Shown one piece after another: positions 5,526 through 58,700 of a stretch of 64,000 nt of DNA. The notes under the pieces were generated by a model, which worked only from the letters and a program-made list of their open reading frames with translations, did no database searches and was not told where the DNA came from. Source of the DNA: Chitinophaga sp. 180180018-3 (GTDB lineage Bacteria; Bacteroidota; Bacteroidia; Chitinophagales; Chitinophagaceae); contig NZ_CP140772.1 of NCBI RefSeq assembly GCF_037893185.1, forward strand, positions 3,038,001-3,102,000, written 5' to 3'. The translations under genes were made by a program, and so were the position numbers. Numbering within the stretch: the stretch's first letter is position 1; the number at the start of each line of letters is the position of its first letter.

Positions 5526-6017
5526 TTATTTTATTTTCAGGCCGGAAGCATCCACTTTCTTAGGTTTCAACGCATCCAGGGCAATTTTCAGCTTCTTCCA
5601 GCGATCAGCTTTTGATTCACCGGTGATAGTGATCACGCCATCTTTTACGTCAGCTGTAATACCAGGAAAATCCTTTACTACAGCAGCTACGCCTGTTTTC
5701 AAAGCATCGTCTGCAGTTGTTGCAGCAGCAGCAGGTGGCGGCGGAGCCGGCGCTTCTACTTTAATGTTGTTGACAACGTTTTTTACACCTTGTGTTACTT
5801 TGGCCGCAGCTTCTGCTGCGTCCTTGTCTGCCTCGCTTTTTACAGATCCGGAAAGTGTTACTACGCCTTCTTTTACTTCAGCAGTCACGCCCGGTGTAGC
5901 CTGCAGTGCAGTTGTTACACCAGCCTGAATATCTGAATCTTTGGGTTTCCCCTTACAGGCAATCATAAACAGCAGCCCTGCGGAAAGGATCAGAGTGCTC
6001 AGGTGTTTTAGTTTCAT
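5526..6017 (-). CDS. BON-domain lipoprotein
   Basis: About 163 residues. The start at 6017 gives a lipoprotein signal (MKLKHLSTLILSAGLLFMIAC); an ATG two codons upstream (6023) is an alternative. Two BON repeats follow, with the core phrases VKEGVVTLSGSVKSEADK and VKDGVITITGESKADRWK. They are separated by a Pro/Ala-rich linker. BON proteins of this kind sit on the periplasmic face of a membrane and are often induced by osmotic or envelope stress. It lies upstream of, and is probably cotranscribed with, the BON/SH3 gene. Confidence 0.8.
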   Translation of the reverse strand: MKLKHLSTLILSAGLLFMIACKGKPKDSDIQAGVTTALQATPGVTAEVKEGVVTLSGSVKSEADKDAAEAAAKVTQGVKNVVNNIKVEAPAPPPPAAAATTADDALKTGVAAVVKDFPGITADVKDGVITITGESKADRWKKLKIALDALKPKKVDASGLKIK

Positions 6018-6077
6018 AGTCATACTGAGTTTTAGTGATGAAAAAATACAGGGTTTAAGATAAGTATCTTTTCTCAA

Positions 6078-6380
6078 CTGGCAATAAGACTTCTATATGT
6101 TATTTATTTTTTAATGAAGATACCCTGGCGCCTATCCCCAAAGTTTAACTACGATAGACCTCCCGTTTATTTTTAGCTGGAAAAGAATCCTGATAATTTT
6201 TTTTCAGTGGTTATGGATTTTTTTGTTTCGCTGCATCATGCCGCCAAAGCGCCAGGTTTTGTAAAGTAGTGGTGGTTAATATATTTATAGTAAGATGTTT
6301 TTAAATTAAAGATTAATGTTATGAAAAAAATAAATAGTGGCTGACCCTAAAAACTCACTTTACCATTTAACCTTATATTG
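6078..6380. other. intergenic region between divergent genes
   Basis: About 300 AT-rich bases between the BON lipoprotein gene (leftward) and the plugless barrel gene (rightward). It must hold both promoters, but I could not place convincing -33/-7 pairs. A seven-codon frame at 6321-6344 (MKKINSG) has nothing to support it. Confidence 0.4.
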
Positions 6381-8951
6381 ATGAATTCAAAAATATATGC
6401 CTTGAAATATCTGCTATTGTTTCTCCTGGTACCGTCCTTTGTACTGGCGCAGCAAAATCTCCCCGTAACTCCGCTTACTTCCGGAGCCTATCAGCGCCTG
6501 ATCCACGCCGACTCCACCGGCGAACTCCTGATGCCTGTTGCTCCGCTGCCAACCGTGCCCGTGGATGGTACTTTAAGTTCAGGTACGCAAAAGCTCCACG
6601 TAAGAACACTCAACAACAGACTCCTGATCTCTTCTCCGGTTGCCCGCTTCCTGCTGATCAGTGGCGGCTATTCCGCTACCGTGGCCCTGAAAACGGTTAA
6701 CCGCCTTCCCACGATCCAAACTACGTATAGCCAGGGCCGTTCCATGAACGGCAACCTCGCCTGGCAGGGACCGGAAACCGGTGAAATGTTCAGCTATGGC
6801 CCCGCACTCAGTGGCCTCGAATTTAATGGTCAGCCTTATCCCTACGATATTAACGGAAAACTGGTGGCAGCAGGCACCGGCAACGGGCGTCACGCCAACG
6901 CCTATACGGGAAATATATTCCGCCATGCCTCCCTGTTCTCCCAATCCTTTAACCTCAATACCAGTTTGCAGGAAAATGGCCTGGTGTCGGGATATTTCAA
7001 TATACGCCTCGGGCATAGCACCGAACAAACTTTCATACAAACAAACAATAACTATAATAAAAATCTGCAACTGTCGCTGGGAAGAACTGTCAAATGGCTT
7101 CGTATTGCGGCCGACTGGAACTATTACGGAGAGCAGTTTTCAAACAGCAACCGCAACGGCTTCCTCAATCGTGCTTATCAACAGGCCATACTTACTCCGG
7201 TTACCTTCGATAACGGCCAGGGCTACACGCTCGGAGCAGGACAGCGCAGCTACGGCAGCCAGGCCGATAATCCCTGGTTCCTGCTTTCAGACAACAACAA
7301 CTATTTCCGGGCAAGAGAGCAACGTGCAGCACTGATGCTCGAAAGAAATGCTTACCGACAGGTGATATACCGCATTTCCCAGTCGTATGAGAACAGAACG
7401 GAAAACAGCAACGAAGGGTACAAGCCCGGTACTGCCGGATTTCCCGCCGGCCTGGAGCTACACCGGAATAAAACAGACCGGCTGTACCTCCTGAAGGCAG
7501 AAGCAATCGGCAAGGTACTTTACGGAATTTATGGACTCGATTCGAAATGGATCATCCACGATATTTTCTCTGAATCAAAGTCGGACATCAGCTATCAGCC
7601 TGGAGCTGCCTACGCTTATCAGCGAAGTACCAATGAAATAAATGTCCGTTACGAAACTTCGTGGACGGAGCACTGGAGGTGGCGGTTCGATCTGAATCTC
7701 GGAAATAAGATCTACCTGTCGAACACCGGTACTACTCCGCATTATTTCCTGCCTGATGCCAACTTTGCGGTAACACATCCGCTGAATACATCGGCCAGAA
7801 CCCCCTGGGAGCTAAAGCTGTTTTCTACATTTGTACAGAGCGCCGGTGAGCTGCCGCTTAACCGTTCCCTCGCTTATATCAATCTCCTGCAATACCGTAC
7901 CCGCGATATGGCAAAATACAATCCTGTGCAGGAAGTGGCCAACTTTGATCACCTCGATCCGGTATTGCGCAGAGAGTGGACCAACGGAGTGAATATCTAC
8001 ACAAACAGGCTCAATTTTGGCGTCAGCGTTTTTATGAAAGACGTGGAGCATGATCCCTTTCCGGTGAACGATAACGGTCGCCTGCTGCTGAAAAACATGG
8101 CGGATCATCGTACCACCGGAATTGATGTGGAAGCGGGATTCAATACACCGGCGCTGAAACCCGGCAACAAAAAACTAACCACTACGCATACACTTTCTCT
8201 GTCCCTTTACAGCAACAAGGTAACCCGGGTATATGACCATTATAACTACACACCCATCGCAGGGTTCAACGACGTATATACGACACTGGTAGAAGGGCAG
8301 CCACTGGGCGTTATCACTGGCAGTGCCTGGCTCCGCGATGCGGCGGGTAACCGCTTAATTGGCCCCGATGGCTTCCCCATGGTCGCTAAAACCCAGGCTG
8401 TCATCGGAAACCCTACACCCGATTTCCAGTTGAAACTCAGCAATACCATACAATGGTGGCGCTTTGCGCTCAACGCTGAACTGGATTGGAAACAGGGCGG
8501 CCAGCGCTGGAATGGCACCAGAGCCATGCTCGATTATTATGGCCGCTCCGGCCAGTCCGCCGCTGAAAGAAATACGGTGGGATATGTGTTCCCCGGTGTA
8601 CAACTGAACGGACAACCCAACAACATCCCGGTCGATTTTTATAATCCTTCCAAACCACTACAGGAGAATCGCTGGGTAAGATACGGGCCGGCAGGCGTGG
8701 CGGAAGACTATATAGAAAAAGCCAGCTGCCTGCGGCTGAATACCCTGAAACTAAGCTACCGGCAGCCGTTCCGGCATGTTTTCCGGGAACTGACGCTCAG
8801 CGCTTACGGGAATAATCTCCTGTTGTGGACCCCCTATAATGGTGTTGACCCGGAGCAATACCTGTTCGATCAGAGCAACACAACCGGCCTCGATTTCTTT
8901 AACCTGCCATCTGTTAAAACATTTGGATTTAATGTATCCCTTCAATTCTGA
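6381..8951 (+). CDS. TonB-dependent receptor (SusC-like) beta-barrel lacking its plug domain
   Basis: About 856 residues with a signal peptide (MNSKIYALKYLLLFLLVPS then FVLAQQ). From about residue 105 the protein follows the start of a SusC-type barrel: TTYSQGRSMNGNLAWQGPE, then SYGPALSGLEFNGQPYPYD. It continues through long barrel strands to a C-terminal GFNVSLQF ending in phenylalanine. An ordinary SusC has about 90 residues of regulatory domain and about 120 of plug ahead of this, with a VVDG motif and an EVLKDA..YGSRGANG motif. Neither is present here; the roughly 80 residues between signal and barrel are unlike a plug. The missing domains occur inside the next gene, whose ATG lies four bases past this stop. 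The ATG at 6381 is preferred over a TTG one codon earlier. Confidence 0.85.
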   Translation: MNSKIYALKYLLLFLLVPSFVLAQQNLPVTPLTSGAYQRLIHADSTGELLMPVAPLPTVPVDGTLSSGTQKLHVRTLNNRLLISSPVARFLLISGGYSATVALKTVNRLPTIQTTYSQGRSMNGNLAWQGPETGEMFSYGPALSGLEFNGQPYPYDINGKLVAAGTGNGRHANAYTGNIFRHASLFSQSFNLNTSLQENGLVSGYFNIRLGHSTEQTFIQTNNNYNKNLQLSLGRTVKWLRIAADWNYYGEQFSNSNRNGFLNRAYQQAILTPVTFDNGQGYTLGAGQRSYGSQADNPWFLLSDNNNYFRAREQRAALMLERNAYRQVIYRISQSYENRTENSNEGYKPGTAGFPAGLELHRNKTDRLYLLKAEAIGKVLYGIYGLDSKWIIHDIFSESKSDISYQPGAAYAYQRSTNEINVRYETSWTEHWRWRFDLNLGNKIYLSNTGTTPHYFLPDANFAVTHPLNTSARTPWELKLFSTFVQSAGELPLNRSLAYINLLQYRTRDMAKYNPVQEVANFDHLDPVLRREWTNGVNIYTNRLNFGVSVFMKDVEHDPFPVNDNGRLLLKNMADHRTTGIDVEAGFNTPALKPGNKKLTTTHTLSLSLYSNKVTRVYDHYNYTPIAGFNDVYTTLVEGQPLGVITGSAWLRDAAGNRLIGPDGFPMVAKTQAVIGNPTPDFQLKLSNTIQWWRFALNAELDWKQGGQRWNGTRAMLDYYGRSGQSAAERNTVGYVFPGVQLNGQPNNIPVDFYNPSKPLQENRWVRYGPAGVAEDYIEKASCLRLNTLKLSYRQPFRHVFRELTLSAYGNNLLLWTPYNGVDPEQYLFDQSNTTGLDFFNLPSVKTFGFNVSLQF

Positions 8952-8955
8952 GATT

Positions 8956-11900
8956 ATGAAAAAGATGATCAGTTTTGTGAGCCTCTTCCTGCTCTTCATT
9001 GCTACCAGCTTCGCACAGCAACCCGATTACGGGAAATATAAAGAGAAGATCTATATACAAACCAGTCATGTTTTTTTTCAGCCGGGCGATGAGGTGTTCT
9101 TTAAGTTATATCTCGTAAATGCGCGCAGCCAGCGGCCTTCCACGGTAAGCAAATCAGTAAATGTGGAAATAGTGGATCCTGCAGGTAAAGTGTTTAAAAG
9201 ACAGTTTTACAAGGTGGAAGACGGATACACGGAAGGTTCTTTTTCCTTCAACGATGATGCTGCCGGTGGTATCTATAAGATCAGCGCCTACACCACCTGG
9301 ATGCGCAATGAAACCGATAGTACCTTTTTTACAAAAGAACTGACACTGCAGAAAGTAGTGACGCCCAGAGTACTGATGAAACTGGATTTTCCAAAGAAGG
9401 GATATGGACCGGGAGACGAAGTACTGGCAGATTATTCGGCGCGTAGCCTGTCCGATCAGCCAATTCGTAATCAGCCGGTATCGTTTAAAGTATCGATCGG
9501 AGGCAAACTGGTAAATACTTCATCCACCACAACAGATAACGAAGGAAAAGCAAAACTGACATTCAGACTTCCTGCTGATCTCAATACCAATGATGGGTTA
9601 TTGAATGTAACAATCGACTACAATGCTTATCGGGAGTCTGTTTCCAGGAGCATCCCCATTGCACTGAACAAAATAGACCTGCAGCTGCTTCCGGAAGGAG
9701 GCACACTGGTAGCCGGCATCAACGCTAACATTGCTTTCCGGGCTGTGAATGAAAACGGTAAACCTGCAGATATAAAAGGCGCCGTACTGGATGACGCCGG
9801 GCGTACCGTACAGGAATTCGAAAGCTATTATGGCGGCATGGGCGCCTTCCACTTCACTCCTGAAGCGGGGAAAAAATATCACGTAAAAATCATCTCTCCG
9901 TTAAACATCCGGCAAACATATCCCTTTCCTGCTTTTACTACCGATGGTGTGACGATGAATATACTAAAGCGAGACGGGAAACTGCTGTTGGAACTCGCGG
10001 CTTCAGCTAATCAGGAGCTGCTGCTGACGGGGGAAACACGGGGAATGTCTGTCTATTCAAAACACATCGTGCTGAAAAAGAATGAGCGGCAAATACTCGA
10101 AATCGATACCACTCCCTTTCCCGCTGGTATTGCCAGGTTCACGCTCTCTAACCGGAACCAGGTACCCCTGGCAGAACGGCTGGTGTTCCTGAATGCGGCT
10201 AAAACCCTCCACGTAAGCATCTCTGCAACGAAGCAGCAATACCTGCCCCGGGAAAAGGTGGAGCTGATGGTACGTACGACCGACGAATCCGGGCATCCGC
10301 TGCCGGCAAATCTTTCGCTGGCTGTCATGGACGATAAACTATGGACCATGGCCGATGATAAACAGGATCACATGCTTTCCTGGCTGCTGATGAGCAGTGA
10401 GCTGAAAGGTAAAATCGATGAACCGGGATTTTATTTCAAAAAAGAAGAGCCGAAATCAGCCGCTGCACTGGATCTGGTGATGCTCACCCACGGTTATCGC
10501 TACTTTGATTATATCCCCGAAGTGAGAACAACGAATACACTGAAATACCTGCCTGATGCAGGTTACGTAGTGAGTGGGGTAGTGGTAAATAAAAACAATG
10601 TTCCGGTGAAAGCTGCCGTATTCCTGGTGAATACAGCCGATAAAGGAAAAGCCCTGAAACTTATTACTGATGCAGACGGCGTATTCTATTTCCCTGGACT
10701 TAGCGCGGGCAATACCTACTATGTTTTAGCCAGGTCGTTGCTGGGCAGCCAGACTGTTAGCATCCGCATGGATGAGTCAGGAATAGGATATAATAAGCTT
10801 CGCAACATTAAGCTACTCGAACAGGGATTTGGCCTCCTGCCAAAACCTGGCATACCAGAACTGAAGGCGGATGCCGCTGCAATTAATAACATAGTGGCGA
10901 TCGATGAAAAGGCGGTGCCGGTTGGCGACGACAAAAAACTGGAAGAAGTGGTGGTAATAGGATACGGAGTGGCGAAGAAACAAATGTTGACAGGCAGTGT
11001 AGCTGCTGTTACTGCAAACGAATTACTGGCGCCCGCAGGTGTACAGGGCTTGCTGCAGGGACGGGTAGCAGGAGTGGAGGTGGCCGCTAACGCCAATCCC
11101 GGTGCTGCAAAGGATATCAGACTTCGGGGAACTACATCACTTACCGGTAATAATACACCGCTGTTTGTAGTGGATGGCATCGTCTTTAATGGATTGGTGG
11201 GTGACCTCAACCCAAATGATATTACCGAAGTAACGGTGATGAAAGGTACAGATGCTACAGCTATATATGGAAGCAGGGCGGTAAACGGGGTTATCATTAT
11301 TAGTACCACGCGGAAGGCAAAAGAACGGATACGGCTAAACGTAGGACAAAAAAACTACTATGCTACCAGTATTGTGAATAGTCCCGCTAACGCATATACG
11401 GTGGCCCGTCGTTTCTATGCGCCACGCTATGCTTCAACGGAAACAACCGAGCGTACCGACTTCCGCGAAACGATCTACTGGAACCCGGTCGTGCAAACCG
11501 ATGAAACTGGTACGGCAACCATAACCTGCTATAACTCCGATGCTACGACTACTTTCAGGGCTATCGCGGAAGGTATTTCCTGGGATGGCCGGGCCGGAAG
11601 AGAAGAAGCTACCTGGTCGGCAAGAAGCGCATTGGAAACGGATGCAAAAATACCACCGTATCTGACCGCCGGCGATAAAGTACTCGTACCACTGGTACTG
11701 AGGAATAACACCAGTCATCATATGAAACTCGGCATCACCCTCACTACGCCGGAAAATATTAGCATAGGAAAATATGAAAACATTGTAGAGGTCGCAGCCA
11801 ATAACTCCCGCCAGGTGCTTATACCGCTGGAAGCCATTGCCCGTACCAAAGGTAACATACGATTTGTAGTGGCAGGAATAGATGGGCATGTAGCACTTTC

Positions 11901-13461
11901 TCTCCCCATTGAAGCAGCCGAAAAAGGTTTCCCGGTGAATTATACTTTCTCAGGAGATAAATCAGCGCAACATCGTTTTGTAATGAGCCAGCCGGTGAAA
12001 GGAAGTGTCACTTCGCGTCTGCAGGTATTCACCAGCCTCGAAGGACAACTGCTCGACGGGATTGAATCCATGCTGAGTGAGCCCCATGGCTGTTTTGAAC
12101 AAACCTCTTCTTCCACGTATCCGAATATCCTGATTCTGAAATACCTGAAAGAATCCGGCAAATCCAATCATCAGGCAGAAAGTAAAGCGATGGACTATAT
12201 TGAGGAAGGCTATAAACGCCTGGTGGGATTCGAAACAACGGAAGGAGGCTTCGAATGGTTTGGCCATACGCCACCACATGAAGCATTGACGGCTTACGGC
12301 TTGCTGGAGTTCACAGATATGCAGTCGTTCATCAACGTCGATAAAAACATGCTGAACCGCACCAAAGCATTCCTTCTGAAACGGCGGAATGGGAAAGGTG
12401 GTTTCCAGTCTGCCTCAGGCGGATACGACAGGTTCGCATCTGTACCGGCAACTATTGCAGATCTGTACATCGTGTATGCCCTGACCCAGGCCGGTGTAAA
12501 ACAGGAAATACAAAAGGAATACGAATCGGGCGTAGCGCGGGCGCTGACTTCCGGCGATGCTTACCAGCAGGCCCTGATAGCACTGGCGGCAGATAATATG
12601 GCGAATACAGCTGATTTCGACCGGCTGATGAGCGCGCTGAAAAACAGCTACCGTAACGGTAAACTTCCTGCTGCTACTACCGTAGTAAACTCCCGGGAAG
12701 TATCGCTAAGGGTGGAAACAATGTCGCTGTTTGTAATGGCCCTCGCCCGGGAGAAAACGCCGGAAGTGGCTACCATGGCGGAACTGGTTTCCAAAATCCT
12801 GTCGGAAAAGAGTTACTACGGCTACGGCTCTACGCAGGGAACCGTGCTGGCCCTGAGCGCCATCGTTGATTACGTGAAAATCAAAGGCCGCCTGGAAAGC
12901 GCAGGTAGTGTCAGCTTTCAGCTGAATGGACAGGCTGTGCATCCAAACGACGCGTTGACCGGATTAATCCGGAACAACGAGAATGAATTCACTGCTCAGT
13001 ATTCCAATAATAACGGCATACCTTACAGCATGCAGGTATCTTATTATACCCTGCAGCCGCAAGCCAATCCCGGTGCGCCACTGGCTTTAAGTACCACGTT
13101 GGGCAACACCCGTACCAGGGTAGGGGAAACGGTGAGAATGAATATCACAGTGAAAAATACCCGCTCCGAACTACAGCCTATGTCTATCGCCAGGATAGGG
13201 ATTCCCGCGGGTTTGTCGCTGCAACCCTGGCAACTCAAAGAGATGGTTGATACGAAGCAGCTGGCCTGGTACGAAATATTCGATAATTACCTCGTACTCT
13301 ACTGGATGGGCTTCAGCCCGGGTGAAACCAAAACAGTGAAGCTGGATCTGAAAGCCGATATCCCCGGCACCTACAAGGCTAAAGCCGGAAACTGCTATCT
13401 GTATTATACGCCGGAACTTAAAGACTGGCAGGCAGGTACAGCAATCGAAATTGCACCCTGA
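8956..13461 (+). CDS. thioester alpha-2-macroglobulin family protein with an internal SusC-type regulatory domain and TonB plug
   Basis: About 1501 residues. In order: a signal peptide (1-20); a macroglobulin MG2-like strand KIYIQTSHVFFQPGDEVFF (31-49) and further MG-type domains; a carboxypeptidase-regulatory-like domain (about 536-610); a complete TonB plug from LEEVVVIGYG (662) through FVVDG (about 737) to YGSRAVNGVIIISTT (about 788). Next comes the A2M core domain (RTDFRETIYWNPVVQTDETG, about 833 onward). The alpha-toroid thioester domain carries GCFEQ (Cys1046 and Gln1049, so the thioester-forming pair is intact). A receptor-binding-like C-terminal domain starts at about 1375. Bacterial A2Ms trap proteases through the thioester. 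The start is four bases after the barrel gene's stop, so translation is coupled. No lipobox is present, unlike E. coli YfhM. A strong terminator follows. Confidence 0.88.
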   Translation: MKKMISFVSLFLLFIATSFAQQPDYGKYKEKIYIQTSHVFFQPGDEVFFKLYLVNARSQRPSTVSKSVNVEIVDPAGKVFKRQFYKVEDGYTEGSFSFNDDAAGGIYKISAYTTWMRNETDSTFFTKELTLQKVVTPRVLMKLDFPKKGYGPGDEVLADYSARSLSDQPIRNQPVSFKVSIGGKLVNTSSTTTDNEGKAKLTFRLPADLNTNDGLLNVTIDYNAYRESVSRSIPIALNKIDLQLLPEGGTLVAGINANIAFRAVNENGKPADIKGAVLDDAGRTVQEFESYYGGMGAFHFTPEAGKKYHVKIISPLNIRQTYPFPAFTTDGVTMNILKRDGKLLLELAASANQELLLTGETRGMSVYSKHIVLKKNERQILEIDTTPFPAGIARFTLSNRNQVPLAERLVFLNAAKTLHVSISATKQQYLPREKVELMVRTTDESGHPLPANLSLAVMDDKLWTMADDKQDHMLSWLLMSSELKGKIDEPGFYFKKEEPKSAAALDLVMLTHGYRYFDYIPEVRTTNTLKYLPDAGYVVSGVVVNKNNVPVKAAVFLVNTADKGKALKLITDADGVFYFPGLSAGNTYYVLARSLLGSQTVSIRMDESGIGYNKLRNIKLLEQGFGLLPKPGIPELKADAAAINNIVAIDEKAVPVGDDKKLEEVVVIGYGVAKKQMLTGSVAAVTANELLAPAGVQGLLQGRVAGVEVAANANPGAAKDIRLRGTTSLTGNNTPLFVVDGIVFNGLVGDLNPNDITEVTVMKGTDATAIYGSRAVNGVIIISTTRKAKERIRLNVGQKNYYATSIVNSPANAYTVARRFYAPRYASTETTERTDFRETIYWNPVVQTDETGTATITCYNSDATTTFRAIAEGISWDGRAGREEATWSARSALETDAKIPPYLTAGDKVLVPLVLRNNTSHHMKLGITLTTPENISIGKYENIVEVAANNSRQVLIPLEAIARTKGNIRFVVAGIDGHVALSLPIEAAEKGFPVNYTFSGDKSAQHRFVMSQPVKGSVTSRLQVFTSLEGQLLDGIESMLSEPHGCFEQTSSSTYPNILILKYLKESGKSNHQAESKAMDYIEEGYKRLVGFETTEGGFEWFGHTPPHEALTAYGLLEFTDMQSFINVDKNMLNRTKAFLLKRRNGKGGFQSASGGYDRFASVPATIADLYIVYALTQAGVKQEIQKEYESGVARALTSGDAYQQALIALAADNMANTADFDRLMSALKNSYRNGKLPAATTVVNSREVSLRVETMSLFVMALAREKTPEVATMAELVSKILSEKSYYGYGSTQGTVLALSAIVDYVKIKGRLESAGSVSFQLNGQAVHPNDALTGLIRNNENEFTAQYSNNNGIPYSMQVSYYTLQPQANPGAPLALSTTLGNTRTRVGETVRMNITVKNTRSELQPMSIARIGIPAGLSLQPWQLKEMVDTKQLAWYEIFDNYLVLYWMGFSPGETKTVKLDLKADIPGTYKAKAGNCYLYYTPELKDWQAGTAIEIAP

Positions 13462-13482
13462 ATGAATGAAGTCATATCAGCA

Positions 13483-13512
13483 GGACGCGCTTTCATAAGC
13501 GCGTCCTTTTTT
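13483..13512 (+). terminator. intrinsic terminator after the barrel-macroglobulin operon
   Basis: A perfect 10-bp GC-rich stem (GGACGCGCTT at 13483-13492 with 13497-13506), a TCAT loop and six Ts. It starts 22 bases past the macroglobulin stop. Confidence 0.9.
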
Positions 13513-16097: not shown

Positions 16098-16631
16098 TTG
16101 GATCAGCAATTGGAGCGGAATAAATTTCAGGTAGAACAATACTTTCATGATAATTATGAAGGCCTGCACCGTTATGCCTATACTATCCTGAAAGATAACG
16201 ATGCTGCCAAAGACGCTGTGCAGGCCGTATTTCTTAAACTATGGGAGAAAAGAGCATTCATTAACGGGGAGCAGTCGGTAAAATCGTACCTGTATACAGC
16301 TGTATATAACTATTGTCTTAATATAAAACGACACGAAAAAGTAAAAACAAGATATGCGGCTGAAAATACCCATGCAAACCAGGAGGGGGGCAATCAGCTG
16401 ATCAGTAAGGAAACCCGTCAGCGGATTATGGAGCATATTGATGCACTGGCACCTCAGTGCAGACTTATTTTCACCAAAAGCAGGTTTGAAGATAAAAAGT
16501 ACGCCGAAATCGCTGAAGAACTGGGCATTTCGGTGAAAACCGTGGAAGCACAGATGGGTAAGGCATTAAAGATACTAAGGGCAAAACTGTTGGATATTTT
16601 GATCAGCCTGATCATTTTCCATCTCCTGTAA
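16098..16631 (+). CDS. ECF RNA polymerase sigma factor
   Basis: About 177 residues. Region 2 is seen in HRYAYTILKDNDAAKDAVQAVF and LKLWEKR; region 4 in YAEIAEELGISVKTVEAQM. No ATG is available before region 2, so translation probably begins at the TTG at 16098; the frame closes upstream at 16083. FecR follows after 11 bases and an STN outer-membrane protein after that, giving a cell-surface signalling set. The hydrophobic C-terminal tail (LDILISLIIFHLL) is common in Bacteroidota ECF factors of this type. Confidence 0.87.
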   Translation: MDQQLERNKFQVEQYFHDNYEGLHRYAYTILKDNDAAKDAVQAVFLKLWEKRAFINGEQSVKSYLYTAVYNYCLNIKRHEKVKTRYAAENTHANQEGGNQLISKETRQRIMEHIDALAPQCRLIFTKSRFEDKKYAEIAEELGISVKTVEAQMGKALKILRAKLLDILISLIIFHLL

Positions 16632-16642
16632 AAATTTAAGTA

Positions 16643-17623
16643 ATGATGAACCATCCTGATCACATACAGATAGATGACGAAATCCTGGCAAAGTACCTGT
16701 CGGGCGAAGCATCCCCGGAAGAAGCCATGGCGGTCGACCAATGGGCCGGCGCCAGCAGGGAAAACCGCGCTGTATTGGATCAGGCAATGAAAGTATGGAA
16801 CAGCACCTCCAATCATCCTGCCTGGCAGTTACCCGGAAAGCCGACATTACTTTCCGCTATCCGCATGCAGCAAAATAAACAACGCAGGCCTGCTGTCATC
16901 ATGAAGTGGACCGCCGCCGCAGCAATGTTGCTGCTGGCGGCACTGGCTACATTCTACCTCATTCCCCGCAACAATCCGGTGAAACAGGTGGCAGACTGGG
17001 TTGTTCGTGATGCCGGCAACAATGTGCTGCGGGATACCCTGCCGGATCAGTCGGTGGCGGTAATCGGCAGCCATTCCTCCATCCGTTATGCCCCCGGGTT
17101 TTCCGGAAAAAACCGGCAGGTATATCTTTCCGGAAATGCATCCTTTGATGTAACATCTGCTTCCACCAAACCGTTTCTGGTAAATACCGGGGAAGTGGTA
17201 GTGAAAGTACTGGGTACGTCGTTTGATGTAAGCCAACAGGATTCGGCTATAGCAATAAATGTCCGGACAGGCGCTGTGCAGGTATCAGGCCCGGATTCTG
17301 TCATCACACTCAGGGCGGGTGAAAGTACAATATACCTGCAGGCGGATCGCCGGTTTATGAACCCGAGGCAACCTGCTCAATCAACCGGGCAACGCTCCTT
17401 TAATTTCAATAACGCTACCCTCCGGGAAGTGGCGTCGGCATTGGAGAAAGCGTATCAGGTAAAAGTAGTTTTTGAAAATAAGAAACTGGAAACCTGCACC
17501 ATGAGCAGCGCTTTCGAAAATAAACCGCTTACGTTCATCCTGGATGTAGTCTCAATTACATTGAATGTCCGGTACAGGATAGATAAAAATATAGTGTATA
17601 TCAGTGGCAATGGATGCAATTAA
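16643..17623 (+). CDS. FecR-family anti-sigma factor
   Basis: About 326 residues. Order: a cytosolic N-terminal anti-sigma segment (YLSGEASPEEAMAVDQWA); one transmembrane helix (WTAAAAMLLLAALATFYLI, about 89-107); a periplasmic FecR domain (GNASFDVTSASTKPFLVNTG and VKVLGTSFDV); and a C-terminal DUF4974 domain (NNATLREVASALEKAY). It should hold the preceding sigma factor inactive until an outer-membrane partner signals. The stop overlaps the start of the STN protein gene, so all three are coupled. Confidence 0.9.
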   Translation: MMNHPDHIQIDDEILAKYLSGEASPEEAMAVDQWAGASRENRAVLDQAMKVWNSTSNHPAWQLPGKPTLLSAIRMQQNKQRRPAVIMKWTAAAAMLLLAALATFYLIPRNNPVKQVADWVVRDAGNNVLRDTLPDQSVAVIGSHSSIRYAPGFSGKNRQVYLSGNASFDVTSASTKPFLVNTGEVVVKVLGTSFDVSQQDSAIAINVRTGAVQVSGPDSVITLRAGESTIYLQADRRFMNPRQPAQSTGQRSFNFNNATLREVASALEKAYQVKVVFENKKLETCTMSSAFENKPLTFILDVVSITLNVRYRIDKNIVYISGNGCN

Positions 17624-18815
17624 CCTACGACATGTTCTGGCACTCTCGCTGTTTCTCTTCTTTGGAATAACAATACCAGCTGCGGGCCAATCGAGCCTGC
17701 AACGAAAGGTGTTACTACCGTCAACGTATATACGCTTCGATTCCCTGCTGGCTATCGTCAGCAGGCAAACCGGCGCCCGCTTTTCAGTGAATACCCGGAA
17801 GTTTCCCCCGTCGCGGGTCATTCGCCTTTCGGCTGAAACAATACAACTGTCGCAGCTGTTGGCGGAAATCAAACATACGACAGGGATAAGGTACAAAACA
17901 CTCGGAGGTCATATCATCTTCGTAGATAGTGAACCAACAAAGAAAAAAGTAGTACCTGTACCTGATGTACAGCATTGGAATTTACATGCTATACCGCGTA
18001 TGTATTTGTCTTACAGAGATACCATTATACCAGCCGATATTATCGGCGCACACAACCAGGTAGTCTCGCATAAGCCAACTACTCCTGATGATACTGCCCA
18101 TCATTTCCAATTAACGTTTAGCCGTAACCGGTATATCTCCAATGGCCCCTTCAGGGCACAGGATGGTTCGCTGGTATACAAGCAGGTACGCGCACCGCGC
18201 AGAGAGAAGCGCCCCTGGATATTTTCCAGCCGCCCCCGCTATGCCCGGCCTGAAGTGTTAGGCCGCAGCAGCGAGCCCAATCAGCTGTTGCTGCTGAATG
18301 CAGGTGTTTATACCACGGAACTATTTTACCTGAATCCAGCCATTCAGGCAGGTGTTTCATTCCTTTACGGGATCATCTCCAGGAATTCCAATTTCAATCT
18401 TAACAGCATTCAATGGGGCGTAGGTTCTTCCATTGGACTGGGCGAAAACTGGCGCCTGCACCTGCAGCTCACTACCGGTAATGTTAGCCGCAACTACGAT
18501 ACGCTCACCTACAAACGAAAGGCAACGGCTCGTTTACTGAAAGGTGCACTGCTGGCCGACAGGCAAATAAGCTCCCGTTTTCGCCTGCAGTTCGGCGTCA
18601 CATACAATAATATGCAAACCCACTTTTATCAGAATGATGCACCATTTGTGCTGGAACCGGGTATGACGGATCTGCTGTTGAAGAACATGAATTTTATTGA
18701 TCTGCCTTTTACTATCAGCAAGTCCTATACGCCAGACAAAGGCCTTAACACAAAAAGCTGGATAGGAGGGCAGGTCGGGCTCTTTTATAATATTAATTTC
18801 TCGCGACGGCGATAA
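17610..18815 (+). CDS. outer-membrane protein with N-terminal STN signalling domain
   Basis: About 401 residues. The ATG at 17610 overlaps the FecR 3' end by 14 bases and gives a signal peptide (MDAINLRHVLALSLFLFFG); a GTG two codons earlier is possible. Residues about 35-105 fit the secretin/TonB short N-terminal (STN) fold: YIRFDSLLAIVSRQTGARF, then LSQLLAEIKHTTGIRY. The last 190 residues alternate polar and hydrophobic strands (YLNPAIQAGVSFLYG, WRLHLQLTTGN, FRLQFGVTYNN), suggesting a small outer-membrane barrel. There is no plug or TonB receptor barrel. In Fec-type systems the STN domain contacts FecR, so this protein could be the sensor of the trio. Confidence 0.65.
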   Translation: MDAINLRHVLALSLFLFFGITIPAAGQSSLQRKVLLPSTYIRFDSLLAIVSRQTGARFSVNTRKFPPSRVIRLSAETIQLSQLLAEIKHTTGIRYKTLGGHIIFVDSEPTKKKVVPVPDVQHWNLHAIPRMYLSYRDTIIPADIIGAHNQVVSHKPTTPDDTAHHFQLTFSRNRYISNGPFRAQDGSLVYKQVRAPRREKRPWIFSSRPRYARPEVLGRSSEPNQLLLLNAGVYTTELFYLNPAIQAGVSFLYGIISRNSNFNLNSIQWGVGSSIGLGENWRLHLQLTTGNVSRNYDTLTYKRKATARLLKGALLADRQISSRFRLQFGVTYNNMQTHFYQNDAPFVLEPGMTDLLLKNMNFIDLPFTISKSYTPDKGLNTKSWIGGQVGLFYNINFSRRR

Positions 18816-55769: not shown

Positions 55770-58700
55770 ATGTTACAACGACTACTCCTTTTCCTACTGC
55801 TATTAGGGCCTTTAGCAGTATTTGCGCAAAGTCGCACGATTACCGGCCGCATTTACTCCGCATCGGACAATCAGCCATTGCCCGGAGCTTCGGTGGCCGT
55901 GAAAGGAACAACTGCCGGAACCGTAAGCGGGGCCGACGGAAGTTTCAGTTTGCAGGTAACTGATCCTGCTGCAACTACGCTTGTTATCCGCTATATCGGA
56001 ATGCAGGCGCAGGAAGTAGCCATCAGTGCATCTCCGCTAACAATAAGACTACGTTCATCCGGTAAGGATATCGATGAAATAGTAATCGTAGCTTATGGTA
56101 CCGCAAAGAAAAATTCTTACACAGGTTCTGTTTCGCAGATCAAAGGCGAAGAGCTCGAGAACCGGCAGGTATCCAGCGTCTCGAAGGCGCTACAGGGCCT
56201 CGCTGCAGGGGTACAGAGTACTTCTGCCAGCGGTCAGCCTGGTTCCGATGCTACGATACGCATCCGCGGTATTGGCTCCATCAATGCTTCTGCTGATCCG
56301 CTGTATGTGGTAGATGGCGTGCCTTACGGAGGAAGCCTGAATGCAATTAATCCTGCTGATATCGAATCTATCAGCGTGCTGAAAGATGCTGCTTCCAGTG
56401 CGTTGTATGGATCACGGGGCGCCAATGGTGTCATCATTATTACTACCAAAAAAGGGAAGAAGCCCGGAAGTAATATAGACGTTCGCGTTAGTCAGGGTTA
56501 TTCCAGCCGCGCCGTGAGAGACTATGATCGTGTAAGTACTGATCAGTACTTTCAAATGTATTGGGAAGCGCTGCGCAATGCCTCCCTCACAAATGGTGCA
56601 ACACCGGATGTTGCGGCGAAACAGGCCAGCAGCCGGCTGATCGGACGACTGGGCATCAATCCCTACGGCAATGCATTCCCTCAGCCGGTTGGTACCGATG
56701 GCAAGCTGGCAGCGGGTGCGAAAGCCCTTTGGAACGACGATTGGGATAAAGCCATGCAACGTACCGGTCATCGTACACAGGCTGATTTAAGTGTAAGCGG
56801 TGCCGCAGATAAAGCAAGATATTACATCTCCGGCGGTTACCTCGATGATCAGGGTATTTATCTTGGCTCCGGATTCAAACGCTACAACCTCCGCAGCAAT
56901 ATAGAGCTCGATGCTAAGAAATGGCTGAAACTGGGACTGAACCTTGCTGGTTCACACTCCGAACAGCAGGCGCCTCCTTCGGAAGACAGCCGTTCAGATA
57001 ACTACGTGAACTACGGCCGCCTGATGTCTTCTTTCTACCCGATCTATCAACGGGATCCGGCTACGGGCGCTTACGTCCTCGATGCTAATGGCAACAGGAT
57101 CTTTGATTTCGGCGCTTACCGGCCAAGCGCTAATAATCCGAAAACCAATCTGATAGCCACTTCCGGTATCGATAAGCACAACGTCCTTCGCGATGATGTT
57201 TCTGCAAGATTGTTCGGAGAGGCTACTATCTGGCGCGGACTGAAGTTTAAAACCAGTTACAATGCTGACTATACCGCGAGAAACGCACACGACTATACGA
57301 ATCCGACACTCGGCTTCGACGCAGAAGTAGGCGGTACCGTGGAGAAAGTGGGGACCCGCACTTTCAGCTGGACTTTCAACAATATCCTTACTTATGAGGA
57401 AACATTCAATGGGGTGCATCACCTGAACCTGCTGGCTGGTCAGGAAGCCTATAAATTCAGGAATACATTCATGGATGGCTCCAAGTCAGGCTTCTCGCTA
57501 CCGGGAGTGGACGAACTCTCTGATGCCGCACTGATCAAAGATCTGCAGGGCTATACAGATACTTACACACTGTCCAGCTTCCTCGGACGTGCTGAATACG
57601 ATTACAAAAACAGGTACTTCTTATCGGCCTCCCTGCGCCGCGACGGTTCTTCCCGCTTTGCACCGGATCACCGCTGGGGTACATTCTGGTCGATCGGCGG
57701 CTCCTGGAAGGCAACAGAGGAAGACTTTCTGAAAAATGTGTCCTGGCTGAACCTGCTGACACTCAGGGCCAGCTATGGTGCACAGGGGAACGACAATCTC
57801 GGCACAGATGCCTACTACAACTACTATCCGCTGCTGAACATCAACAGCAACCTCGGAGAAGGAGGTACCTACCGCAGGTTACTGTATAACCCGAAACTGA
57901 AATGGGAAACAAACCTGAACCTGAACGTGGGCGTGGATTTTTCTGTATTTAGTAATCGTCTTGGTGGTACAGTGGAGTTCTTCGAACGTAAATCGAAAGA
58001 CCTCCTGTTTTCCAGACCGATTGCTCCTTCACTTGGATATTCCTCGATTGCAGAGAACATAGGTGCTTTAAAAAATACAGGCGTTGACGTTACCCTGCAC
58101 GGCGTTCCCGTTAAAACTAAAAGCTTCTCCTGGAATGTGGATTTCAATATGACTCACTATACGAACAAGGTCACCTCGCTGCCGCAGCGGGAGATTATCA
58201 GCGGCACTAAAAAACTCATGGTAGGCCGTTCTATCTACGATTTCTGGATCAGGAAATGGGCGGGCGTAGATCCCAATACCGGCCTGCCTCAATGGTATGT
58301 CGATAAAACTGATGGCAGCCACGGCGTTACGAATACCTATGCCAATGCCTCCCTGTATTACAGCAGCTCTTCATTGCCGGATGTATATGGTGGTTTAACC
58401 AATACGTTCAACTATAAAGGCTTTTCTCTGTCGTTCATGCTGGTGTACAGCCTGGGTGGTAAAGTGCTCGATCAGGATTATCTCTTCCTCCTGGGTACCG
58501 GAACTTCCGCCGGACGTCCTTTTGCAAAGGAAATGCTGAATCACTGGACTCCCGACAACAAGAACACCGATGTGCCTAAGCTGACGACGATCAATACCAA
58601 CTGGACTTCCGTTTCAGACCGTTTTCTTTACGACGCCAGCTATGCCCGCCTGAAGACGTTGAACCTGAGCTATAACCTGCCTAAATCGCTGATGGAAAAA

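Follow-up and report, generated by a model that had tools for sequence, protein, structure and literature searches.

A SusC-type barrel without a plug and an alpha-2-macroglobulin that carries one: a conserved gene pair that probably forms a two-chain TonB-dependent machine

The 64,000-nucleotide stretch of Chitinophaga sp. 180180018-3 DNA analysed here, hereafter the window (contig NZ_CP140772.1, positions 3,038,001 to 3,102,000), carries at 6381-13461 of its forward strand two genes that divide between them the parts of a SusC-type TonB-dependent transporter. Gene 1 encodes a barrel of SusC type without a plug; gene 2, which follows directly, encodes a protein of the alpha-2-macroglobulin (A2M) family that contains a regulatory domain, a TonB box and a plug of SusC type in addition to a thioester. 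The features of the pair, in window coordinates, are as follows:

6381..8951, plus strand: gene 1, plugless SusC-type barrel protein, 856 amino acids and stop (ATG at 6381, TGA at 8949-8951)
6381..6569, plus strand: gene 1 signal peptide (by eye) and disordered N-terminus, residues 1-63 (AlphaFold2 confidence score, pLDDT)
6645..8948, plus strand: gene 1 predicted 22-strand barrel, residues 89-856 (AlphaFold2 model)
8952..8955, plus strand: spacer of four bases between genes 1 and 2 (sequence)
8956..13461, plus strand: gene 2, A2M-family protein with NTE/CTD, TonB box, plug and thioester, 1501 amino acids and stop (ATG at 8956, stop at 13459-13461)
9046..9330, plus strand: MG2 domain, residues 31-125 (Pfam PF01835)
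10570..10740, plus strand: carboxypeptidase regulatory-like domain (NTE/CTD), residues 539-595 (Pfam PF13620, just under cut-off)
10786..10932, plus strand: variable linker from the CTD to the TonB box, residues 611-659, a candidate bait (conservation, pLDDT)
10939..10956, plus strand: TonB box LEEVVV, residues 662-667 (alignment with the BT1763 box region)
10978..11292, plus strand: SusC-type plug, residues 675-779 (Pfam PF07715; TIGR04056; 6sli_B, 5t3r_D, 5fq6_B)
11452..11466, plus strand: putative alpha'NT-like element R..F/Y R, residues 833-837, soon after the plug (alignment)
11470..11739, plus strand: A2M domain, residues 839-928 (Pfam PF00207)
12052..12873, plus strand: thioester domain (TED), residues 1033-1306 (Pfam PF07678; helical in the model)
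12088..12102, plus strand: GCFEQ thioester motif, residues 1045-1049 (sequence)
13093..13416, plus strand: bMG10-like C-terminal domain, residues 1380-1487 (Pfam PF17973, under cut-off)

The initial annotation of this region had described gene 1 as a SusC-type barrel lacking both plug and regulatory domain, and Pfam, the NCBIfam SusC model TIGR04056 and AlphaFold2 agree on this point. Gene 1 matched no Pfam family at E<=0.1, and TIGR04056 recognised the barrel end only (residues 538-856, equivalent to positions 668-981 of 981) with 83 bits, a score under that model's cut-off for whole proteins. Residues 1-63 take the place of the NTE and plug of a SusC; AlphaFold2 gave pLDDT values below 50 to residues 1-36 and 38-63, and built a barrel from residue 89. 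No plug-like fold therefore occupies residues 25-105, and the predicted structure has the 22-strand outer-membrane barrel of the SusC/RagA transporters. Many structural matches of the gene 1 model begin at residue 16-23; as this falls within the low-confidence N-terminus, we do not take it for a plug.

Gene 2 complements gene 1 almost exactly. TIGR04056 matched it at residues 658-818 only, equivalent to positions 74-238 of the model (E 8e-45), and the two genes together tile one SusC with an overlap of about 16 residues. The Pfam plug match reached 48.6 bits against a cut-off of 23.9, and the CarboxypepD_reg match (E 6e-7, just under cut-off) corresponds to the NTE of SusCs and is modelled as strands at residues 537-609, with pLDDT of about 70-85. 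The remainder has the make-up of an A2M, namely MG domains with an A2M domain and a TED bearing a CxEQ thioester; the end of A2M_BRD was also matched at residues 414-461 (E 0.044, under cut-off). The presence in gene 2, four bases after gene 1, of a regulatory domain and a plug in SusC order together with an intact GCFEQ had been proposed at the outset and is borne out by Pfam and TIGR04056. The plug appears to occupy the bait-region slot of the A2M, this slot apparently being filled by the CTD, a disordered linker (mean conservation 0.468; pLDDT below 50 at residues 623-684) and the plug. A longer gene 2 frame, starting at 8839, was rejected: it overlaps gene 1, and the start at 8956 precedes a signal-peptide-like stretch.

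The same arrangement was found well beyond the window. Loci were collected as 58 stretches round matches and 60 stretches from three further groups: g107 (43 of the 90 positive genomes, one more g107 genome being already among the first 58 stretches), g108 (6) and g128 (11). Window included, 115 stretches contained a plug-bearing A2M or a remnant of one, and two of these (L088 and L101) were set aside because they lie at contig ends; three plugless A2Ms (L098, L099 and L100) and the remnant locus of genome G040 (L102) were left out of this count. A plugless barrel sequence lies directly upstream of the A2M at all 113 testable loci, in three families. At 108 of them the barrel frame has at least 800 residues and the A2M frame at least 1209 (the A2M frames of L133 and L207 are shortened), and one or both genes are broken at the other five (L103, L104, L210, L241 and L246). 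None of the barrel frames tested (51 and then 58) carries a plug, the best hit of the plug profile with filters off among the 51 having an E-value of 1.1; L241 has an extra upstream frame with a plug, but this frame is a fragment of the broken A2M at that locus. The gap between the genes has a median of 4 nucleotides to the best-placed plausible ATG, and falls within -10 to 40 nucleotides in 102 of 105 measurable pairs.

That 113 of 113 loci repeat this pair, with its domains divided alike, is far beyond chance. P-values calculated for the pairs take no account of relatedness. The more independent evidence for the pairing comes from the three families, from joint absence (see below) and from changing surroundings: any of the six genes flanking the pair in the window was present at only 10 of 54 loci (L087-L097, L102-L144), and no single one at more than 8, so the pair has been kept while its neighbourhood changed. 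The plugless A2Ms have no adjoining barrel. Two of them are distant (L099 and L100, 22-26% identity) and L098 (genome G444, A2M at 5874-10580) is the only close control, with the same A2M frame, a GCFEQ motif and two CTDs, and no plug in the slot. What lies upstream of the L098 A2M is, by eye, an MsrA-like gene.

The two genes are also present and absent together. In the window's genus (79 genomes; barrel at E<=1e-40, A2M core at E<=1e-30) the barrel was found in 44 genomes and the A2M core in 44, both in 43 and neither in 34, leaving one remnant of each; both genes are broken in two of the 43 (G047 and G065). The barrel-only genome, G040, retains a frame of 366 residues (L102, 5623-7023) that ends about 300 bases before an SdpI gene, which in the window follows the A2M; the remainder of the barrel and the entire A2M are missing, most simply through a single deletion. 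The A2M-only genome, G037, has a decayed copy at a contig end. The picture is similar in g107, which belongs to another family (173 genomes): the A2M is present in 90, the barrel in 89, both in 89 and neither in 83, and in the sole A2M-only genome (G754) the A2M core lies 740 bases from a contig start. Contig ends aside, no genome of these two genera has one gene intact and the other wholly absent. That homologues of the two genes might mostly occur apart is thus contradicted by both genera as well as by the testable loci.

Searches of wider samples gave 11 of 244 genomes of the family (three of the window's genus), with or without the plug in the query, and 5 of 296 genomes of the phylum with the plug in the query, then 7 of 296 without it. 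With so few candidates scored per genome, these large samples may overstate absences: 3 were scored with the plug in the query, which draws many SusC plugs, and 3-4 without it. In the window's genus one search scored 12 of 30-86 candidates and the other nearly all, the latter being the least affected, and in g107 4-6 at most were scored. A protein homologue search with A2M residues 380-1000 gave 7151 matches, of which the best 120 were examined; many of the 7151 are probably ordinary SusC plugs, so this number is no measure of family size. The window's own genome has one full match to each gene among the matches listed. It also encodes, in another stretch (L011, 496-3249, minus strand), an MG2 protein that ends after an A2M-like region, without a TED; its plug is degenerate (11.8 bits) and apparently orphan, with no barrel in the 3.9 kb seen.

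Judged by sequence conservation, the A2M plug is constrained as a functional plug would be. Its column entropies correlate with those of SusC plugs (0.82), the consensus is the same in 55 of 71 conserved SusC columns, and A2M plugs score 57-156 bits (median 129) against a SusC-plug profile whose own members score 71-175 (median 141). As in SusCs, a TonB box lies, by sequence, N-terminal to the plug, but in the A2M chain. Across the 108 A2Ms residue 664 is E or D in 106, residue 665 is V in 106 and residue 666 is V or I in 105; the box of BT1763, VDEVVV, is reported to have been established by deletion and alanine mutants (PMC7782687). The thioester motif GCFEQ is present in all 108 pairs. In the putative alpha'NT-like element, R833 is kept in 93 of 108 and residue 836 is F or Y in all 108; the apparent counterparts in human A2M are R732 and F735 (PMC9352918). 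A simple lipobox pattern was found in none of the 108 A2Ms, gene 2 included.

The split between the two chains seems to have occurred once. In a tree of the C-terminal barrel, the 108 split barrels form one clade against 46 ordinary SusCs (support 1.0). The plug tree also groups the 108 A2M plugs (support 0.958), but this clade takes in one ordinary SusC, encoded at 55770 of the window, so that the case for one origin is weaker for the plug than for the barrel. Some barrels still have an N-terminal CTD and no plug (PF13715; 36.7 bits in L097 of g108 and 49.5 bits in L095 of g128, other g108 and g128 barrels being alike by eye); Pfam found no CTD in the g107 barrels L096 and L214 or in the Chitinophaga-family barrels (window and L087). 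A distant plugless relative of 998 residues, P0073, also keeps the CTD (59.0 bits); by eye, its residues 1-230 apparently hold the last part of a plug as well, and it is possibly an intermediate of the split. The simplest story is that the plug moved once from the pore gene into the adjoining trap gene, in what we infer to be that direction, and that the pair has been inherited together since.

With the domain division, the tiling of SusC, the adjacency, the joint presence and absence, the conserved plug, TonB box and thioester and the barrel fold all observed computationally, we consider it probable that the two proteins form a single TonB-dependent machine of the outer membrane, with the plug supplied in trans. 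Both ends of the plug face the periplasm in TonB-dependent transporters; being part of a periplasmic protein therefore need not keep a plug from entering a barrel from the periplasmic side. The A2M plug very likely docks in its partner barrel, because an open 22-strand pore would be harmful, because the plug is intact and because, contig ends aside, no genome of the two genera surveyed has one gene intact and the other wholly absent. Gene 1 would then be a 22-strand SusC barrel that lost its plug, and gene 2 a periplasmic thioester A2M with NTE, TonB box and plug in place of the bait region. The plug would enter from the periplasm and seal the pore, and, once docked, would tether the A2M, for which no lipid anchor is seen, beneath it. 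As the A2M holds both plug and TonB box, any pull by TonB would act on the A2M, and it is likely that TonB does drive plug movement and so opens the pore. Whatever arrives at the periplasmic mouth, most simply a protease or another protein, would meet the exposed linker and plug as bait, and the thioester could bond to the arriving molecule; we narrowly favour such thioester trapping under the pore.

Whether the movement of the plug is coupled to exposure of the trap is more doubtful. It is tempting to speculate about a force-gated covalent trap, tentative as this is, in which the plug of a nutrient pore has turned into the bait region of a complement-like thioester protein: once TonB had pulled it out and unfolded it, plug and linker would be open to cleavage, and an incoming protease would fire the thioester at the mouth of the pore. 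While docked, the plug would be folded and hidden and the trap cocked, and opening of the pore and arming of the trap would be one and the same movement. In human A2M, broken continuity of the bait region is reported to be essential for firing (PMC9352918).

Several results weigh against these proposals. Lengthening of the bait region in native human A2M does not fire the trap according to the same report, so the plug, if it is bait, must be cut and not only pulled; lengthening during synthesis is described there as impairing native folding. An isolated FepA plug is reported to have behaved as unfolded (PMC11658791), which in turn would make an undocked plug a good bait. The plug within the A2M model has low confidence (pLDDT of about 47-68); a plug lacking its barrel should look like this, but so would a poor model. 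In g107 the barrel is broken and the A2M frame long in G632 (L210) and G702 (L246), and the A2M is broken and the barrel frame long in G642 (L241), G716 and G762, through either decay or sequencing error. Raw mutual information over the 108 pairs (effective number, Neff, 69) shows a deficit in the plug; dominance of clade markers is the probable reason. Within-clade shuffling placed the linker, plug, post-plug segment and CTD above other A2M domains; within-clade entropy matching then removed the plug excess (residual 0.033 vs 0.020 elsewhere, standard deviation 0.059). Distance matrices correlate less between barrel and plug (r 0.68) than between barrel and MG1-6 (r 0.975), and this comparison, in which one value was undefined, does not single out the plug either. 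We regard covariation between barrel and plug as uninformative and count no support from it; the alignment of split barrels with ordinary SusCs is too loose in mid-barrel to place the lock contacts that other receptors have between barrel Glu and plug Arg. After entropy matching the linker (0.232) and the CTD (0.127) stay higher, the linker value coming from only 12 columns of residues 613-656.

Other explanations account for parts of these data. The plug and barrel could form a static anchor which holds a protease-trapping A2M in place of a lipid, with no transport and no role for TonB. The missing lipobox pattern and the invariant thioester would suit this, as would the contrast with ECAM, described in PMC4498604 as anchored in the inner membrane and linked with Pbp1C. 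We nevertheless think it quite unlikely, because the TonB box and the conservation pattern of an ordinary SusC plug are kept, and because a lipobox would be simpler than a 22-strand pore. Alternatively, the barrel may import proteins or peptides that the A2M captures covalently as food, and not in defence against proteases. Among solved SusC sequences, a profile search with gene 1 matched 5fq6_B (BT2261-2264) best and 8aa4_A weakly, and the RagAB peptide transporter was among the structural matches of the gene 1 model. However, SusC structures are so close to one another that this ranking says little about the substrate, and no SusD adjoins the pair in the window; we hold import for food to be unlikely.

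The remaining two alternatives are much less probable. TonB-dependent export by Oar, as reported in PMC11658791, raises the idea of an outward-working machine, comparable to Oar with PopC, in which the plug keeps a secreted protease inactive until its exit, but none of the six window neighbours behaves as a constant cargo gene and we give this very little credence. It is just as improbable that the A2M plug serves other SusC barrels generally, the adjoining plugless barrel being sealed in some other way. There are many other barrels, since the A2M query had 163 matches in the genome, most of those listed being the plug region of frames of about 1000-1250 residues, and L011 is an example of an A2M-like protein whose plug is degenerate and which has no barrel within the 3.9 kb seen. 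Yet all 46 ordinary SusCs sampled (20 of them chosen by plug match) have their own plug, the two genes of the pair are present and absent together, and the plugless A2Ms lack a barrel.

The surroundings of the pair in the window include BON, GNAT, SdpI and hydrolase genes. Two other SusC genes examined in the window (26663 and 55770) have the ordinary make-up: each encodes plug and barrel as a single chain, with 822 and 863 bits to TIGR04056, and has an adjoining SusD. Behind the gene 2 stop, the site scan marked the following:

13482..13507, plus strand: candidate intrinsic terminator, 11-pair stem and T run

It has the longest stem of the 9 terminator-like sites of the region, against 9.2 by chance; a promoter scan of the region gave 8 sites against 9.9 by chance, with no excess. 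Further downstream (16098-18815), genes for an ECF sigma factor and FecR precede that of a 403-residue protein without a Pfam match; its N-terminus looks STN-like by eye, and the protein is possibly a second case of a receptor part separated from its barrel.

Descriptions of TonB-dependent transporters have plug and barrel in cis, on a single chain. If the pair is a two-chain machine as proposed, it would be a natural case of a plug in trans, held under selection in three families; one could then study how the plug is removed, how TonB pulls and how the pore opens by omitting or altering one partner, and bacterial A2Ms would gain a defined place under an outer-membrane pore. We found no description of such a barrel/A2M pair in the titles and abstract starts of the papers listed by searches of the open PMC literature. 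Among the matches listed, the A2Ms are named 'TonB-dependent receptor plug domain-containing protein', 'alpha-2-macroglobulin-like protein' or 'SusC/RagA subfamily outer membrane receptor', and the barrels 'hypothetical protein' or, in a few cases, TonB-dependent receptor or SusC/RagA family protein.

Comparison with known systems shows what is shared and what is not. The SusC/RagA transporters (BT1763, BT2264 and RagA) have the same 22-strand barrel, NTE, TonB box and plug with SusC signatures; here, however, the two parts are divided between chains, one of which is an A2M with the plug built into it. The bacterial A2Ms (E. coli ECAM/YfhM and Salmonella SaA2M) share by sequence the A2M domain and the TED with CxEQ. 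YfhM has a lipoprotein signal for membrane anchoring, whereas gene 2 shows no lipobox pattern; it has a TonB plug in what appears to be the bait slot, and its probable partner is an outer-membrane barrel. The slot that contains the bait in human A2M and the anaphylatoxin domain in C3 apparently contains NTE, TonB box and plug here. An artificial precedent for a plug in trans may be FhuA, whose plug and barrel were reportedly expressed separately in E. coli by Braun and co-workers, but that split was engineered and the plug was not fused elsewhere. SprA of the type 9 secretion system is likewise a Bacteroidota outer-membrane barrel closed by a separate protein, Plug, which has an unrelated fold and is not known to have a TonB box or a thioester. 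The pair is a variant both of SusC transporters and of A2Ms; as a machine it fits neither class, since the plug that defines SusCs, in the same chain and N-terminal to the barrel, has here become part of the A2M.
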